A stretch of DNA of 64,000 nucleotides from the NCBI RefSeq assembly GCF_000300335.1, contig NZ_AMRM01000017.1:1-64000 (forward strand), in the 5' to 3' direction. The position numbers were made by a program, and so were the translations under genes. Shown here one piece after another: positions 6,801 through 23,374 of this stretch. Positions within the stretch are counted from its first letter, which is position 1, and each line of letters starts with the position of its first letter. The notes under the pieces were generated by a model that saw only the letters and a list, made by a program, of their open reading frames with translations, searched no databases and was not told the DNA's origin. Source of the DNA: Nitratireductor pacificus pht-3B. GTDB lineage: Bacteria > Pseudomonadota > Alphaproteobacteria > Rhizobiales > Rhizobiaceae.

Positions 6801-7746
6801 CTGCGTCTGCCCGGAGGGCACCACCTTCCGCAACGGCGAGTGCGTCGGCAGCTCCTCGATCCCGCTGCCCACGCCGCGTCCGCGGCCGCAGCCTCAGCCG
6901 GAGCCGGAGAAGCCGCGTCCGCAGGCGGAATGCCGCCTGCTGCCCGGCCAGATCCGCACCCGCGAAGGCCAGTGCGTCTGCCCGCGCGGAACCCAGCTGG
7001 TTCGGGGTGCCTGCCGCAAGCCGGAAGTGCAGCGCGAATGCCCGAGGGGCACGACGGGTCGCTACCCGAACTGCCGCCCCATCGTGCAGGAGCGTTGCCC
7101 GCGCGGCACGACGGGAACGCCGCCCAACTGCCGGCCGATCGTCCAGCAGTGCCGCCTGCTGCCGGGCATGATCCGCACCCGGGACGGACAGTGCGTCTGC
7201 CCGCGCGGAACCCGCCTGGTCGCCGGCGCCTGCCGCAAGCCGGAAGTGCAGCGCGAATGCCCGAGAGGCACGACGGGTCGCTACCCGAACTGCCGCCCCA
7301 TCGTGCAGGAGCGTTGCCCGCGCGGCACGACGGGAACGCCGCCCAACTGCCGGCCGATCGTCCAGCAGTGCCGCCTGCTGCCGGGCATGATCCGCACCCG
7401 GGACGGACAGTGCGTCTGCCCGCGCGGAACCCGCCTGGTCGCCGGCGCCTGCCGCAAGCCGGAAGTGCAGCGCGAATGCCCGAGAGGCACGACGGGTCGC
7501 TACCCGAACTGCCGCCCGATCGTTCAGCAGCGGTGCCCGCGCGGCACGGTCGGGAACTTCCCGAACTGCCGTCCGGTCGTCCAGCAGCGCTGCCCGCGCG
7601 GCACGGTCGGTACGCCGCCCAACTGCCGCAAGGTGCAGCAGCCGCCGGTGAACCGTGTCGTCCCCCGGCAGCCGGATACGAACGTGCCCCTGCGTGTCGT
7701 TCCCCAGCTCCTGCGGCCGCGCGACAACAGCAACCGGCTCCAGTGA
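3871..7746 (+). CDS. Secreted DUF11-repeat protein with Cys-rich tandem-repeat C-terminus
   Basis: About 1291 residues. Starts at 3871 (GGGGGG just upstream) and at 3931 (GGAG 6 bases upstream) are both possible; the latter gives the cleaner signal peptide (MKPVADMARRPRW, hydrophobic core, cut after AHAQ). A Cys-pair domain like the end of the previous protein lies at about residues 287-388. Four DUF11-type beta-sandwich repeats follow at about 400-925 (openings such as PDIKVEKRADEAECEIDG and PDIAVRKRADPSLCTPDG). The C-terminus is rich in Cys, Pro and Arg, with three units of 73 residues carrying CRLLPGMIRTRDGQCVC and CPRGTTGRYPNCRPIVQ. DUF11 domains are common in bacterial surface proteins. 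Many paired cysteines suggest a disulfide-linked extracellular stalk, by inference. Confidence 0.8.
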   Translation: MTMFTHLAERDTFNEVMETIMKPVADMARRPRWLLAAGMALSTALMPFAGAVPAHAQDRVVEELEVLETPGDPEGPRIKLEPEIPEAEPILRPFLEKRGRQLDCDYVEYRLRLGVRGEPAMIAHPGLDAFLSDVKFELTDQLPANLSIVDVTFSGDIIGAGGGPVPPHVVGTTATTDDTLTQSDFHLTAADLDGDGSLTERAIDITIKARIDQAAFPAVTNVDNQANVAVIRVATGGLVATIPSHDPALPDDGDWKTGDPTTIPIDVTDCEPPPPPPPGDGPEEACFAVETGEVDCTPGGGAYIYRMDVGPEMAGRVVAVSTTTPGITIDPPDQIVPAGGGTLEWKITGAAPGETVHLIVTGIETYAGPAEGVGLCCSQVVDIEIPEDLDCPPDDEGEPDIKVEKRADEAECEIDGSCDFTIRVSNAGDAPYTGKIVLDEVTTPGNAAVVSGPNAPWTCVPMASPMSCEHPETTLNPGEFVELKLGFQPGPGWSWRGIRNCAEYDYTTSGKGPFGDPTNDKACASIAICLPGDPECTPPENDIPDIAVRKRADPSLCTPDGLCTYVVTVFNAGATPINGPVTFVDTFPGGDVASATFSPSPPWTCAPLAGNSFQCDHPMLSLIPGGATDILVTTVVGDYPTNTVENCAKVTPLAGETNLANNEACATATIPGTPGKPLMRIQKTCDTTVTSASVSCRITVTSVGTAAPMGPVRVNDAAEIIGSGTPVDIQSVTPDGPEWSCGPVPAATLGCQIPGAVMTPGTSRHFDVTVNVSPNERFENCARGSFGPAPGDDIVYPFGEACAQGGTQITVDKTGDAECRLGEPCTFQVTIRNEGPSAISAPVRIGDALTVEGFGGVPATILSVNPPFGCTPEPTELPFVCETNLTLGAGESRMHEVTVELPADGGLANQVANGANGRNCAAVVPPNADVRAMTAVGPAAPGADRPFDCHDFRIMPVEEDEPDVQCSPGLVFNNDGRCVCPEGTTFRNGECVGSSSIPLPTPRPRPQPQPEPEKPRPQAECRLLPGQIRTREGQCVCPRGTQLVRGACRKPEVQRECPRGTTGRYPNCRPIVQERCPRGTTGTPPNCRPIVQQCRLLPGMIRTRDGQCVCPRGTRLVAGACRKPEVQRECPRGTTGRYPNCRPIVQERCPRGTTGTPPNCRPIVQQCRLLPGMIRTRDGQCVCPRGTRLVAGACRKPEVQRECPRGTTGRYPNCRPIVQQRCPRGTVGNFPNCRPVVQQRCPRGTVGTPPNCRKVQQPPVNRVVPRQPDTNVPLRVVPQLLRPRDNSNRLQ
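6931..7587 (+). repeat. Three tandem 219-bp coding repeats
   Basis: Units start at 6931, 7150 and 7369, exactly 219 bp (73 codons) apart. The second unit and the first two-thirds of the third are almost base-for-base identical, including synonymous positions. The first unit differs at a few codons, and the tail of the third has changed (ERCPRGTTG becomes QRCPRGTVG). Near-identity at DNA level points to recent amplification or homogenisation. Confidence 0.9.
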
Positions 7747-18667: not shown

Positions 18668-18829
18668 AGGTCGCGTTGCGCCTTGCCGGATCGGCACCGC
18701 CCTATTCCAAAAAGCGATTTGAGCGCTCCCGCGCGCGAAGGCACTCTTTTTCGCAGAACACGGCGTTTCCGCCACTCGTCCGATGAAGGCGGGACCGGAC
18801 AGCGGCCGTGGACAATCGGAGGAGAAGAC

Positions 18830-20092
18830 ATGCGCTCGAGAATGAAGAAACTGCTCTGTGCCTGCGCCTTTGCCGCCGCGACCGTCGCGGGAAATGCGAC
18901 GGGCGCTTCAGCCGAGGACGAGATCAGCTTCCTGGTGGTCGACTACGAGGCGCCCGGCATGGGCGACTGGTGGCAGCTTCTGGCTTCCACCTACGAGGCA
19001 AAGACCGGCAACAAGGTGGTGCCGCGCAACACGCCGGCCAGCGAGTATTACGAGCAATTGCTGATCCAGGCGGCGAGCGGTACGGGCGCCGACATCCTGA
19101 CGGTCAACCCGAACAATATCGGCGAGCTTCTGGCCGCCGGCCAGCTCATGCCGCTGACCGGGTTCCTGGAAAGCTCGGGCGTCAAGGACAAGATCGTCGG
19201 GGGTGGCTTCGACGCCCTGACGGCGGATGGCGAGATCTACGCGCTGCCGATCACCGGCCGCACGCTCGAGCTCATCTACAACGCCTGCTATCTGAAGGAG
19301 GCCGGCTTCGACCGTCCCCCGCAGACCCCGCAGGAGTTCCTCGACTACGCGACGAAACTCACCGTCAAGGACGATTCTGGCCGCGTGACCCGCTACGGCG
19401 CGAACATGGTCAACGCCAACGAGGACCCCACCTATGAGATGCTGCTCATGTGGAGCCTCGCCCATGGCGGTTCCTTCGCCGATGCGGACGGCAAGTTCAC
19501 GCTCGATTCGGAACCGGTCATCGCCGGGCTGAAGCAGATGAAGGCGCTCTACGATGCCGGCGTCGTGCCGAAGGGCATGACGGAGACCGACCAGCGCTCG
19601 CTCTTCGCGACCGGCGGGACAGCCATGACCATCGACGGGCAATGGCAGTTTCCCTTCATCGAGAAGAACAATCCCGACAATTTCGACTGCTACAAGTCGG
19701 CGCTGCATCCCTGGGACGGGCCAGGCACCGGCGGCGTGAACATGGCGCTCGCCATCAATGCGGCGACCAAGAACCCCGAAGCGGCGAAAGCCTTCATCGA
19801 GACCGCGGCCAGCGCGGAGATGCAGTCCACATTCTCCGACCACAGCCCCTATCTGCCTTACGGGGTGAACGCACTGACCGATGCGCAGCGCGCCGCACGC
19901 CCCTATCTCGAAGCCTGGATTGAAAGCAGCGGCAACGCACATCCGGTGGCCATTCCCGGCCATGCCGACCAGTTCAACGAGATCTGGCCGATCGTAGTCG
20001 ATGCGGTGCTGCTGACCCTGCGCGACGGCAAGCCGGCGGAGGAAAGCCTCGCCGAGGCGCAGGCGAAGCTGGAGGACTGCTGCGCCAGATAG
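18830..20092 (+). CDS. Sugar-type ABC transporter substrate-binding protein
   Basis: 420 residues with a strong GGAGGAGAAG ribosome site and a Sec signal peptide (MRSRMKKLLCACAFAAATVA, cut after ASAE). The mature part fits extracellular solute-binding family 1 (MalE/UgpB class): TYEAKTGNKVVPRNTPAS, then MTIDGQWQFPFIEKNN and NAATKNPEAAKAFIE. It is the first gene of a four-gene importer with MalF- and MalG-type permeases. Ligand probably a sugar, sugar alcohol or glycoside, by family only. Confidence 0.88.
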   Translation: MRSRMKKLLCACAFAAATVAGNATGASAEDEISFLVVDYEAPGMGDWWQLLASTYEAKTGNKVVPRNTPASEYYEQLLIQAASGTGADILTVNPNNIGELLAAGQLMPLTGFLESSGVKDKIVGGGFDALTADGEIYALPITGRTLELIYNACYLKEAGFDRPPQTPQEFLDYATKLTVKDDSGRVTRYGANMVNANEDPTYEMLLMWSLAHGGSFADADGKFTLDSEPVIAGLKQMKALYDAGVVPKGMTETDQRSLFATGGTAMTIDGQWQFPFIEKNNPDNFDCYKSALHPWDGPGTGGVNMALAINAATKNPEAAKAFIETAASAEMQSTFSDHSPYLPYGVNALTDAQRAARPYLEAWIESSGNAHPVAIPGHADQFNEIWPIVVDAVLLTLRDGKPAEESLAEAQAKLEDCCAR

Positions 20093-20126: not shown

Positions 20127-21086
20127 ATGAGCGGCGTCAGCGAGAAGAAGGGAAAAGGCGGGCCACCGGCCGGAAGCGGCGGCGGTCTCGCCAATTTCCT
20201 CACCGAAGGAGGGGGCTTCCTTCTCATCATGCTGCTTCCCGCCCTGCTGGTTCTGGGGTTCGTGATCGGCCTGCCGATGCTGAAGGCGCTCATCCTTAGC
20301 TTCGACACGATCAACTTCCGCAGGCCAGCAGCGGCGGGCACTTTCGGCTGGCATAATTACGAGAAGCTGATCTTCGACGCACAGGTCTGGAACGCGGTCT
20401 GGCGCTCTGCCCTCTATATGGGCGGCACGGTCGTCGGCTCGATCGTCCTTGCCCTCTCGGCCGCCTTGCTGACGCGCCGCATCGTGCGGTTCCGTGCTCT
20501 TGCGCGGCTCACCTTCCTGATACCGTGGACGGTCCCCGCCGTTGTGACGGCTCTGGTCTGGGGAGTGATGTATGAGGGCAATTTCGGCGTCATCAACCGC
20601 CTTCTCGAACCCCTTCCCTTTATCGACCGCGCCGACTGGCTCATCGACCGGAACACGGCCCTGCCCGCGCTCATCCTGGCCCAGGTTTGGAACGAGTTCC
20701 CGGTCGCCTATATCTTCTTTCTCGCCGGGCTGCACTCGATCCCCGACGAACTCTACGAGGCCGCCCGGATCGACCGGGCGAGCGCCTTCAACCAGTTCCG
20801 CCACATCACCCTGCCGCAGCTCAGCACCATCACGGCGGTGATCGTCATCCTCCTGATGATCATGGGGTTCAAGTCCTTCCCCATCATCTTCATCCTGACC
20901 GGCGGCGGGCCTGCTGGGGCGACCGAGACGATGACCGTGCTCACCTACAACACCGCCTTCCGCAAGCTCGACTTCTCCTATGCGGCGACGCTCGGCATTC
21001 TCGCCGTCCTCATCTCGCTCGCCATGGTTCTCGCCTATCTGCGCGTCATGAAGCGCGCGGAGCGCGGCGCCGGCGGGGCAGTCTGA
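20127..21086 (+). CDS. Sugar-type ABC transporter permease (MalF/UgpA class)
   Basis: 319 residues with a Gly/Pro/Lys-rich cytoplasmic start and six membrane segments. The EAA loop reads YEAARIDRASAFNQFRHITL. It starts 34 bp after the binding-protein stop and ends 2 bp before the second permease. Confidence 0.9.
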   Translation: MSGVSEKKGKGGPPAGSGGGLANFLTEGGGFLLIMLLPALLVLGFVIGLPMLKALILSFDTINFRRPAAAGTFGWHNYEKLIFDAQVWNAVWRSALYMGGTVVGSIVLALSAALLTRRIVRFRALARLTFLIPWTVPAVVTALVWGVMYEGNFGVINRLLEPLPFIDRADWLIDRNTALPALILAQVWNEFPVAYIFFLAGLHSIPDELYEAARIDRASAFNQFRHITLPQLSTITAVIVILLMIMGFKSFPIIFILTGGGPAGATETMTVLTYNTAFRKLDFSYAATLGILAVLISLAMVLAYLRVMKRAERGAGGAV

Positions 21087-21088
21087 TC

Positions 21089-21913
21089 ATGGCGCACTCC
21101 CTCGGATCGCAGATCCTGCGCACAGCCGCATTGGCGGTGCTGGGCATGATCGTCCTCTTCCCGGTCTACTGGATGGCGGTGATCGCGTTGACGCCAACGG
21201 GTTTCAGCCGCAGCCTGGCGGGCATCTTTCCCCAGAGGATCACCTTCGAGAACTTCGCCATGCTGTTCTCAGAGCGCCCCATGCTGCGCTGGATCGGCAA
21301 CAGCATTTTCGTCGCCGCAGCCTCGTCCTTCCTGTCGCTCGCCTTCGGCGCGTCCTGCGGCTATGCGCTCAGCCGGATAAGGTTTCGTGGATCCGGCCTG
21401 GTCCTCATCCTCGTGCTCGCCACGCAGATGATGCCGGCCACCAGCATCGTCGTGCCGCTCTACATCCTGTTCCGCGACTTCGGCCTCCTCGACACCATGC
21501 AGGGCATGGTGCTCGGTCACATTTCGCTGGTCGCGCCGCTGGCGATCTGGATGAGCAAGGGGTTCTTCGACAGCATCCCGGCCGACCTCGAAGGCGCGGC
21601 CCGCATCGACGGCTGTTCGCGCCTTTCAGCCTACTGGCATGTGACCCTGCCACTGGCGCTGCCCGGCCTTGCCGCGATCTTCATCTACGGCTTCGTGACG
21701 AGCTGGCACGACTTCCTGTTCGCCAAGACCCTCATCAACTCGCAGTCGCTCTGGACGGCTGCCACGGGCATCTCGTCCTTCCGTGGCGAGTACTTCACCC
21801 TGCACGAATTGCAGATGGCGGCCGCGCTGGTCTTCGCGCTTCCGGTCATCGTCGTCTTTCTCATCATGCAAAGGCGCATCGTCTCGGGTGCGCTGGCCGG
21901 CAGCGTGCGCTGA
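21089..21913 (+). CDS. Sugar-type ABC transporter permease (MalG/UgpE class)
   Basis: 274 residues with six membrane segments and the loop [20 protein letters not shown]. The start at 21089 lies 2 bp after the previous stop. Forms the channel with the other permease; the ATPase gene follows after 25 bp but is broken. Confidence 0.9.
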
Positions 21914-21938: not shown

Positions 21939-22475
21939 ATGGCAACCGTCTCATTCTCGAAAGTCGTCAAGAGCTACGGAGACGCGGAAGTCATTCACGG
22001 CGCGGACATCGAGATCGGGGACGGCGAGTTCGTCGTCTTCGTCGGTCCCTCCGGCTGCGGAAAATCGACGCTCCTGCGCATGCTGGCGGGCCTCGAAAGC
22101 ATCAGCGGCGGCGAGATCAGGATCGGCGACCGGGTGGTGAGCCACCTTCCGCCGAAGGACCGCGACGTGGCGATGGTGTTTCAGAACTATGCGCTCTATC
22201 CGCATATGAGCGTGGCCGACAATATCGGCTTTCCGCTGAAGATGGCTGGGATCGCACCAGCGGAGCGCAGGACGAAAGTGGCGGAGGTCGCCGGCCTTCT
22301 CGGTCTCGACGGCCTGCTCGACCGCCACCCGCGCCAGCTTTCCGGCGGCCAGCGCCAGCGGGTCGCCATGGGCCGCGCCATCATAAGGCAGCCTTCCGTA
22401 TTCCTGTTCGACGAGCCGCTGTCCAACTCGAAAGCATCAGCGGCGGCGAGATCAGGATCGGCGACCGGGTGGTGA
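21939..22475 (+). pseudogene. ABC transporter ATPase (MsmK/UgpC-like), 5' fragment before a frameshifting duplication
   Basis: Starts normally ([20 protein letters not shown]) with intact Walker [11 protein letters not shown]-loop, signature LSGGQRQRV and Walker [10 protein letters not shown]. After DEPLSN a 335-bp duplication shifts the frame and the product ends after [14 protein letters not shown], 178 residues in all. The D-loop, H-loop and TOBE domain are missing, so this product cannot complete a normal ATPase cycle. Removing one duplicate copy restores a single 366-codon gene of standard length. Confidence 0.9.
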
Positions 22476-22761
22476 GCCACCTTCCGCCGAAGGACCGCGA
22501 CGTGGCGATGGTGTTTCAGAACTATGCGCTCTATCCGCATATGAGCGTGGCCGACAATATCGGCTTTCCGCTGAAGATGGCTGGGATCGCACCAGCGGAG
22601 CGCAGGACGAAAGTGGCGGAGGTCGCCGGCCTTCTCGGTCTCGACGGCCTGCTCGACCGCCACCCGCGCCAGCTTTCCGGCGGCCAGCGCCAGCGGGTCG
22701 CCATGGGCCGCGCCATCATAAGGCAGCCTTCCGTATTCCTGTTCGACGAGCCGCTGTCCAA
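22092..22761 (+). repeat. Perfect 335-bp tandem duplication inside an ABC ATPase gene
   Basis: Bases 22092-22426 and 22427-22761 are identical by base-by-base reading. The unit is not a multiple of three, which causes the frameshift. No clear microhomology is seen at the junction. It could be a recent real duplication, which can revert by recombination, or an assembly error. Confidence 0.93.
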
Positions 22762-23374
22762 TCTGGATGCCGCGCTGCGCGTGCAGATGCGCCGTGAGAT
22801 CAAGCTCCTGCACCACCGTCTCGGCGCCACCATGATCTTCGTGACCCACGACCAGGTGGAAGCCATGACCATGGCGGACCGCATCGTGGTTCTGCGCAAC
22901 GGGCGCGTCGAGCAGGTCGGCACACCCGATGAAATCTACCGCCGGCCGGGAAACACCTTCGTGGCCGGCTTCATCGGCGCGCCGCCCATGAACGTGATCG
23001 AGGGCACCGCCGCCCTTTTACAGCAGGGCGCGGTCTTCATGCCGACAGCCGATCCCAAGCTCGCAATCGATCTCCCCGCGGGTGCACGAAAACTCCCGGA
23101 AGCCGCTTTCCTCGGCATTCGCCCGGAAGACTGCGTCGTCCAAGGCAAGGCCAGGACGGCCGAGCTCGAAGGCCGCGTCAGGTTCATCGAGAGAAGCGGT
23201 CCCGAAACCCAGTTGACCATCGCGCTGGGCGCAACCGGCGGGCTCTCCCTCATCACCGTCAACTGGGACGGACAGAGGCATGCGATCGGCGACCCCGTGC
23301 GTTTGAGGCTCCCCGCCGACCGGCTTTGCCTTTTCGACCGGGACGGCAATCTGCTTTCGGAAAGCGCGTGCTGA
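22469..23374 (+). pseudogene. ABC transporter ATPase (MsmK/UgpC-like), 3' fragment after the duplication
   Basis: Open from a GTG at 22469. It carries the second copy of the Q-loop to Walker B region, then [18 protein letters not shown], the H-loop [14 protein letters not shown] and a TOBE domain. It lacks Walker A, so alone it cannot bind ATP normally. Together with the upstream fragment it holds all parts of one ATPase. The four-gene importer would need another ATPase, loss of one copy, or is inactive as sequenced. Confidence 0.88.

Follow-up and report, generated by a model that had tools for sequence, protein, structure and literature searches.

The window, a stretch of 64,000 nucleotides from Nitratireductor pacificus pht-3B, is part of contig C17 of a draft genome of 51 contigs and 4,466,205 bases. 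It carries an importer operon in which the gene for a UgpC/MalK-like ABC ATPase follows those for a binding protein and two permeases, an operon that is kept in many relatives. Inside the ATPase gene, as assembled, lies a double copy of a 335-base unit. The features are the following, in the order of their first base:

18683–20092, + strand: importer operon, solute-binding protein; its start codon is provisional
20127–21086, + strand: permease 1 of the importer
21089–21913, + strand: permease 2 of the importer
21939–22475, + strand: ORF 1, N-terminal part of the UgpC/MalK-like ATPase as assembled, 178 amino acids
22066–22091, + strand: 26-base exact stretch in common with the ABC-ATPase locus C2:194697, ending one base before the unit
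22092–22426, + strand: copy 1 of the 335-base unit as written, made up of the 309 bases that separate two shared stretches and the first 26 bases of the second stretch
22427–22761, + strand: second written copy of the unit, identical to the first
22469–23374, + strand: ORF 2, C-terminal part of the UgpC/MalK-like ATPase with the TOBE domain, 301 amino acids (the GTG start was set mechanically)
22736–22764, + strand: 29-base exact stretch in common with other ATPase genes

In a direct comparison the two 335-base copies were equal (300 of the 335 bases are displayed in register), and the tandem-repeat analysis gave a period of 335, 2.0 copies and a match of 100%. The copies abut exactly, and the claim of the sequence-only reading that two identical 335-bp copies lie head to tail is hence correct. 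Such a perfect tandem repeat is not a product of chance. It had also been proposed that the unit, not being a multiple of three, splits the ATPase frame into two partial ORFs. This holds as well: 335 mod 3 is 2, the frame of the ATPase gene is broken, and ORFs of 178 and 301 amino acids result. ORF 1 ends 15 residues past the codon that straddles the junction 22426/22427, and its translation contains what we take to be the Walker A, signature and Walker B regions. The Walker A region is missing from ORF 2, which holds the rest of the ATPase and overlaps ORF 1 by 7 bases. The profile search found UgpC positions 1–167 in one gene piece and 68–352 in the other. Against the UgpC/MalK profile NF008653 the pieces reached 281.5 and 353.3 bits, both below the curated cut-off of 432, as is expected of a split gene. 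The window gene resembles the UgpC/MalK-type importer ATPases of this family in its ABC_tran and TOBE domains and in its place in an operon with a binding protein and a pair of permeases, but it differs from them in being split, in all likelihood in the assembly only.

The two gene pieces show a dN/dS of 0.063–0.148 against four congeners, compared with 0.056–0.154 among the congeners themselves. Both pieces show purifying selection, and an old pseudogene is therefore not indicated. In the four congeners the orthologues are open for 362–378 codons, which makes a one-copy ATPase gene with some 366 codons plausible. Permease 1 of the operon was found in five of the ten genomes of the genus at E ≤ 1e-80, with the strain's own genome counted. 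Among named relatives Nitratireductor aquibiodomus comes closest, with 93% in permease 1. At the ATPase of the operon the unit is single in 16 of 17 related loci, while the remaining one (L041) gave no match. In 15 of these 16 single-copy loci the reading frame is open for 348–378 codons from the position used, which in two of the 15 (L035 and L037) is a codon that is not a start. The operon is not complete everywhere. In congener G001 the ATPase is frame-broken after 25 codons; at L045:6536–7906 (contig C4 of G001) we see a remnant of the operon in which permease 2 is cut as well and permease 1 and the binding protein are missing. In G005, permease 2 of the operon is split between two frames at L047:15129–15138, which is either a sequencing error or a real break. 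Of the plasmid records, 2442 matched, none of them covering 80% of the query in one place.

A family search in the strain's own genome revealed a second UgpC-like ATPase, on contig C8, in which profile positions 146–197 are present twice. With two double copies in paralogues of one genome, we looked for a common cause and sampled the genome. The sample consists of 64 stretches plus the window and comprises 1,203,692 non-redundant bases, 27.0% of the assembly. Forty of the 64 stretches were chosen around ABC ATPases and 20 without regard to them; three more are the rest of C17, and one lies beside the C4 case given below. In this sample, which is uneven and rich in ABC ATPases, we detected four perfect abutting double copies, namely the 335-bp unit of C17 and units of 154 bp on C8, 245 bp on C4 and 566 bp on C9. 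The three further cases are:

L003:1774–2082 (C8:155654–155962): perfect 154-base abutting double copy that splits a UgpC-like ATPase gene
L079:321–814 (C4:50320–50813): two perfect, abutting copies of 245 bases, by which an oligopeptide-type ABC ATPase gene is split
L131:2155–3286 (C9:52154–53285): perfect 566-base abutting double copy at the border of two neighbouring ABC_tran genes

All four lie in or across genes with a Pfam ABC_tran domain, and one of them, on C4, came from the 20 stretches that were chosen without regard to ATPases. The gene split on C4 has the ABC_tran domain together with a weakly matched oligopeptide-transporter C-terminal domain. The C9 copy leaves an intact ORF of each neighbouring ATPase gene at its sides, and the claim of a broken frame is therefore not extended to all four cases. 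Three other repeats are not of this kind. The three-copy 219-base array at 6931–7594 of the window has diverged copies (94% and 86%) and looks natural, the 153-base pair at L050:1322–1686 (C17:105322–105686) is 99% identical with starts 212 bases apart and does not abut, and one 41-base run of period 1499 in L063 was not counted as a perfect abutting double copy. In congener G002 a small control of 400,000 bases on 2 contigs, its stretches not chosen around ATPases, contained no perfect abutting double copy, and none was found in five 17-kb stretches of congeners. Contigs C38 and C14 begin at their first base inside genes matching the UgpC profile (L074 and L075), which fits with assembly trouble in this gene family.

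The four double copies follow one rule. To the left of each unit lies an exact match of 26 bp or more to another locus, and the unit begins at the base that follows this match; on the right, each copy takes in precisely the first 26 bases of the next shared stretch. The C17 copies, for example, end 26 bases into the 29-base shared stretch, at 22401–22426 and 22736–22761. In a whole-genome search for exact words, the right-hand 26 bases of the C17 unit were found five times (on C6, C8 and C17). Of the left-hand word, the final 21 bases were found twice, on C2 and C17. The shared stretches at the two ends of this unit match different loci. The rule describes both ends in 4/4 double copies. The position of the unit is ambiguous by 1 base on C8 and by 4 bases on C4, and in each of these one position fits both ends. 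The C9 double copy was found after the rule had been set and fitted at both ends without ambiguity. When word lengths from 20 to 33 were scanned, 26 fitted 4/4 copies, while 20–25 and 27–33 fitted 0/4. All four copies stop at base 26, in second shared stretches with lengths of 29, 37, 33 and 32 bases. The number 26 appears a second time, as a minimum length, in the left-hand stretches of C17 and C9, which are just 26 bases each. Finally, we placed the four unit lengths over the whole sample, in which a few stretches overlap, and found the rule at both ends in 10 of 4,712,944 placements. All ten lie inside the four duplicated loci: seven are the written copies, and the other three pair further positions within the copies on C8 and C4. 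The geometry is absent elsewhere in the sample.

From this data we conclude, with a probability of roughly 0.97, that the 335-base double copy is an assembly artefact and is not present in the DNA of the cell. A short-read assembler working with 27-base words would cut contigs wherever two loci have a 26-base word in common, which is frequent among the many related ABC-ATPase genes. If the contig between two shared stretches were then appended twice into the scaffold, with the leading 26-base overlap trimmed each time, the product would read as the first shared stretch, the unit plus 26 bases of the second shared stretch, the same once more, and the rest of the second stretch. Appending the contig twice with k = 27 and 26-base trimming reproduces all four structures to the base. 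We infer an assembler of this kind, the step in which the contig is appended twice, and a single cellular copy with an intact ATPase gene. We know of no cellular process that would let all eight unit ends coincide with words found again at other, different loci, and of none that would stop at base 26 of stretches of 29 to 37 bases. The C8 double copy is likely an artefact too, because it follows the same 26-base rule. The sequence-only reading had itself named a misassembly as one option, and this option is now strongly supported by three more double copies and by eight unit ends that are fixed by 26-base matches. It also agrees with the single unit at 16/17 related loci, the restriction of the junction word to this one of ten genomes of the genus, the lack of a Ku match and the purifying selection on the two gene pieces.

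Two observations bear on the details of this step. Every unit also runs, uncut, through one or more shared stretches in its interior that are 26 bases or longer (22333–22360 in the C17 unit, and likewise on C8, C4 and C9). A plain k = 27 graph is therefore too simple, and we assume a repeat-solving step that used reads or pairs. At ten contig ends, a comparison of the last 26 bases with the sampled 27% of the genome found them shared in 0/10 cases, so that the ends give no independent sign of k = 27. Neither observation weakens the geometry. An excerpt of PMC6868369 describes the de Bruijn graph as one of k-base nodes whose edges stand for k−1 bases in common, and speaks of assembly errors that databases do not check. 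The false duplications described in the excerpted part of PMC9516828 are alike in that the assembly contains more copies of a stretch than the DNA does, but they concern vertebrate assemblies. Among the matches listed in our literature search, judged by titles and the beginnings of abstracts, no paper announces the exact 26-base geometry and nothing concerns the assembler that was used for this strain.

The sequence-only reading had suggested that the duplication disables the ATPase gene and could switch the importer off reversibly. In this view a real, recent tandem duplication would break the gene and recombination between the copies could restore it, as in the pneumococcal capsule. The idea is reasonable in the light of two precedents: an excerpt of PMC4243769, citing Waite 2001 and 2003, mentions spontaneous and reversible sequence duplication in pneumococcal capsule operons, and one of PMC4235727 lists tandem-duplication recombination among the mechanisms of localised hypermutation. 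As in the capsule phase variation of PMC4243769, as far as the excerpt goes, the duplication sits inside an ORF and would turn the gene off; however, the event is spontaneous and reversible there, whereas the unit ends in the window point to an assembler. The identical, frame-breaking copies would suit such a switch, as would the decay of the operon in G001 and the purifying selection on the gene pieces, which means that any break would have to be recent. Against it stands the fixed 26-base offset of unit ends that are set by matches to other loci, here and in the three other copies. The junction argues in the same direction. Outside the copies the flanking bases are unequal (C versus A on the left side, C versus T on the right), and the junction homology is therefore 0 nt; the 12 equal positions out of 40 between the two breakpoint regions we take as chance. 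Since the end stretches match different loci, homologous exchange would not make the 335-base junction. End joining was considered as a cause and rejected, as no Ku family match that could make blunt joins was found in the strain's own genome (among 14 control genomes, Bacillus subtilis alone was positive). We consider the off-switch very improbable, and neither the switch nor the claim that the gene is disabled finds support, given unit ends that point to the assembler.

Real duplications could also be frequent in the ABC-ATPase genes of this strain, with 26-base paralogue matches starting recombination or template switching. All four copies do lie in or across such genes and adjoin shared stretches, but recombination would not halt uniformly at base 26 of stretches of 29, 37, 33 and 32 bases, and a template switch would import paralogue sequence, while the copies do not differ from each other at any base. 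To this explanation we give an even smaller chance than to the off-switch. The more general picture of several real ABC-ATPase tandem duplications, produced by a mechanism keyed to about 26 shared paralogue bases and reversibly switching importers off, ranks between the two and is itself most unlikely. Least probable of all is an old, fixed duplication that has left the ATPase as two chains working together. Both pieces are long ORFs with a 7-base overlap, as two chains would require, but the copies show zero differences, against about 17% between the window and the nearest congener over the 335-base unit. In addition, the second piece is without the Walker A region, and the junction word was found in only one of the ten genomes of the genus, the strain's own, being absent from the other nine that were searched.

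The assembly artefact thus remains our reading, and it has practical consequences. To ask whether both unit ends fall at the ends of shared words with a constant offset is a cheap test that separates an assembler-made from a real tandem duplication and that needs no reads. In this draft genome, a read check is needed before the four ABC-ATPase loci are taken as broken or duplicated. The feature at 22092–22761 is very probably absent from the cell, and the importer ATPase gene of the living bacterium is probably intact.
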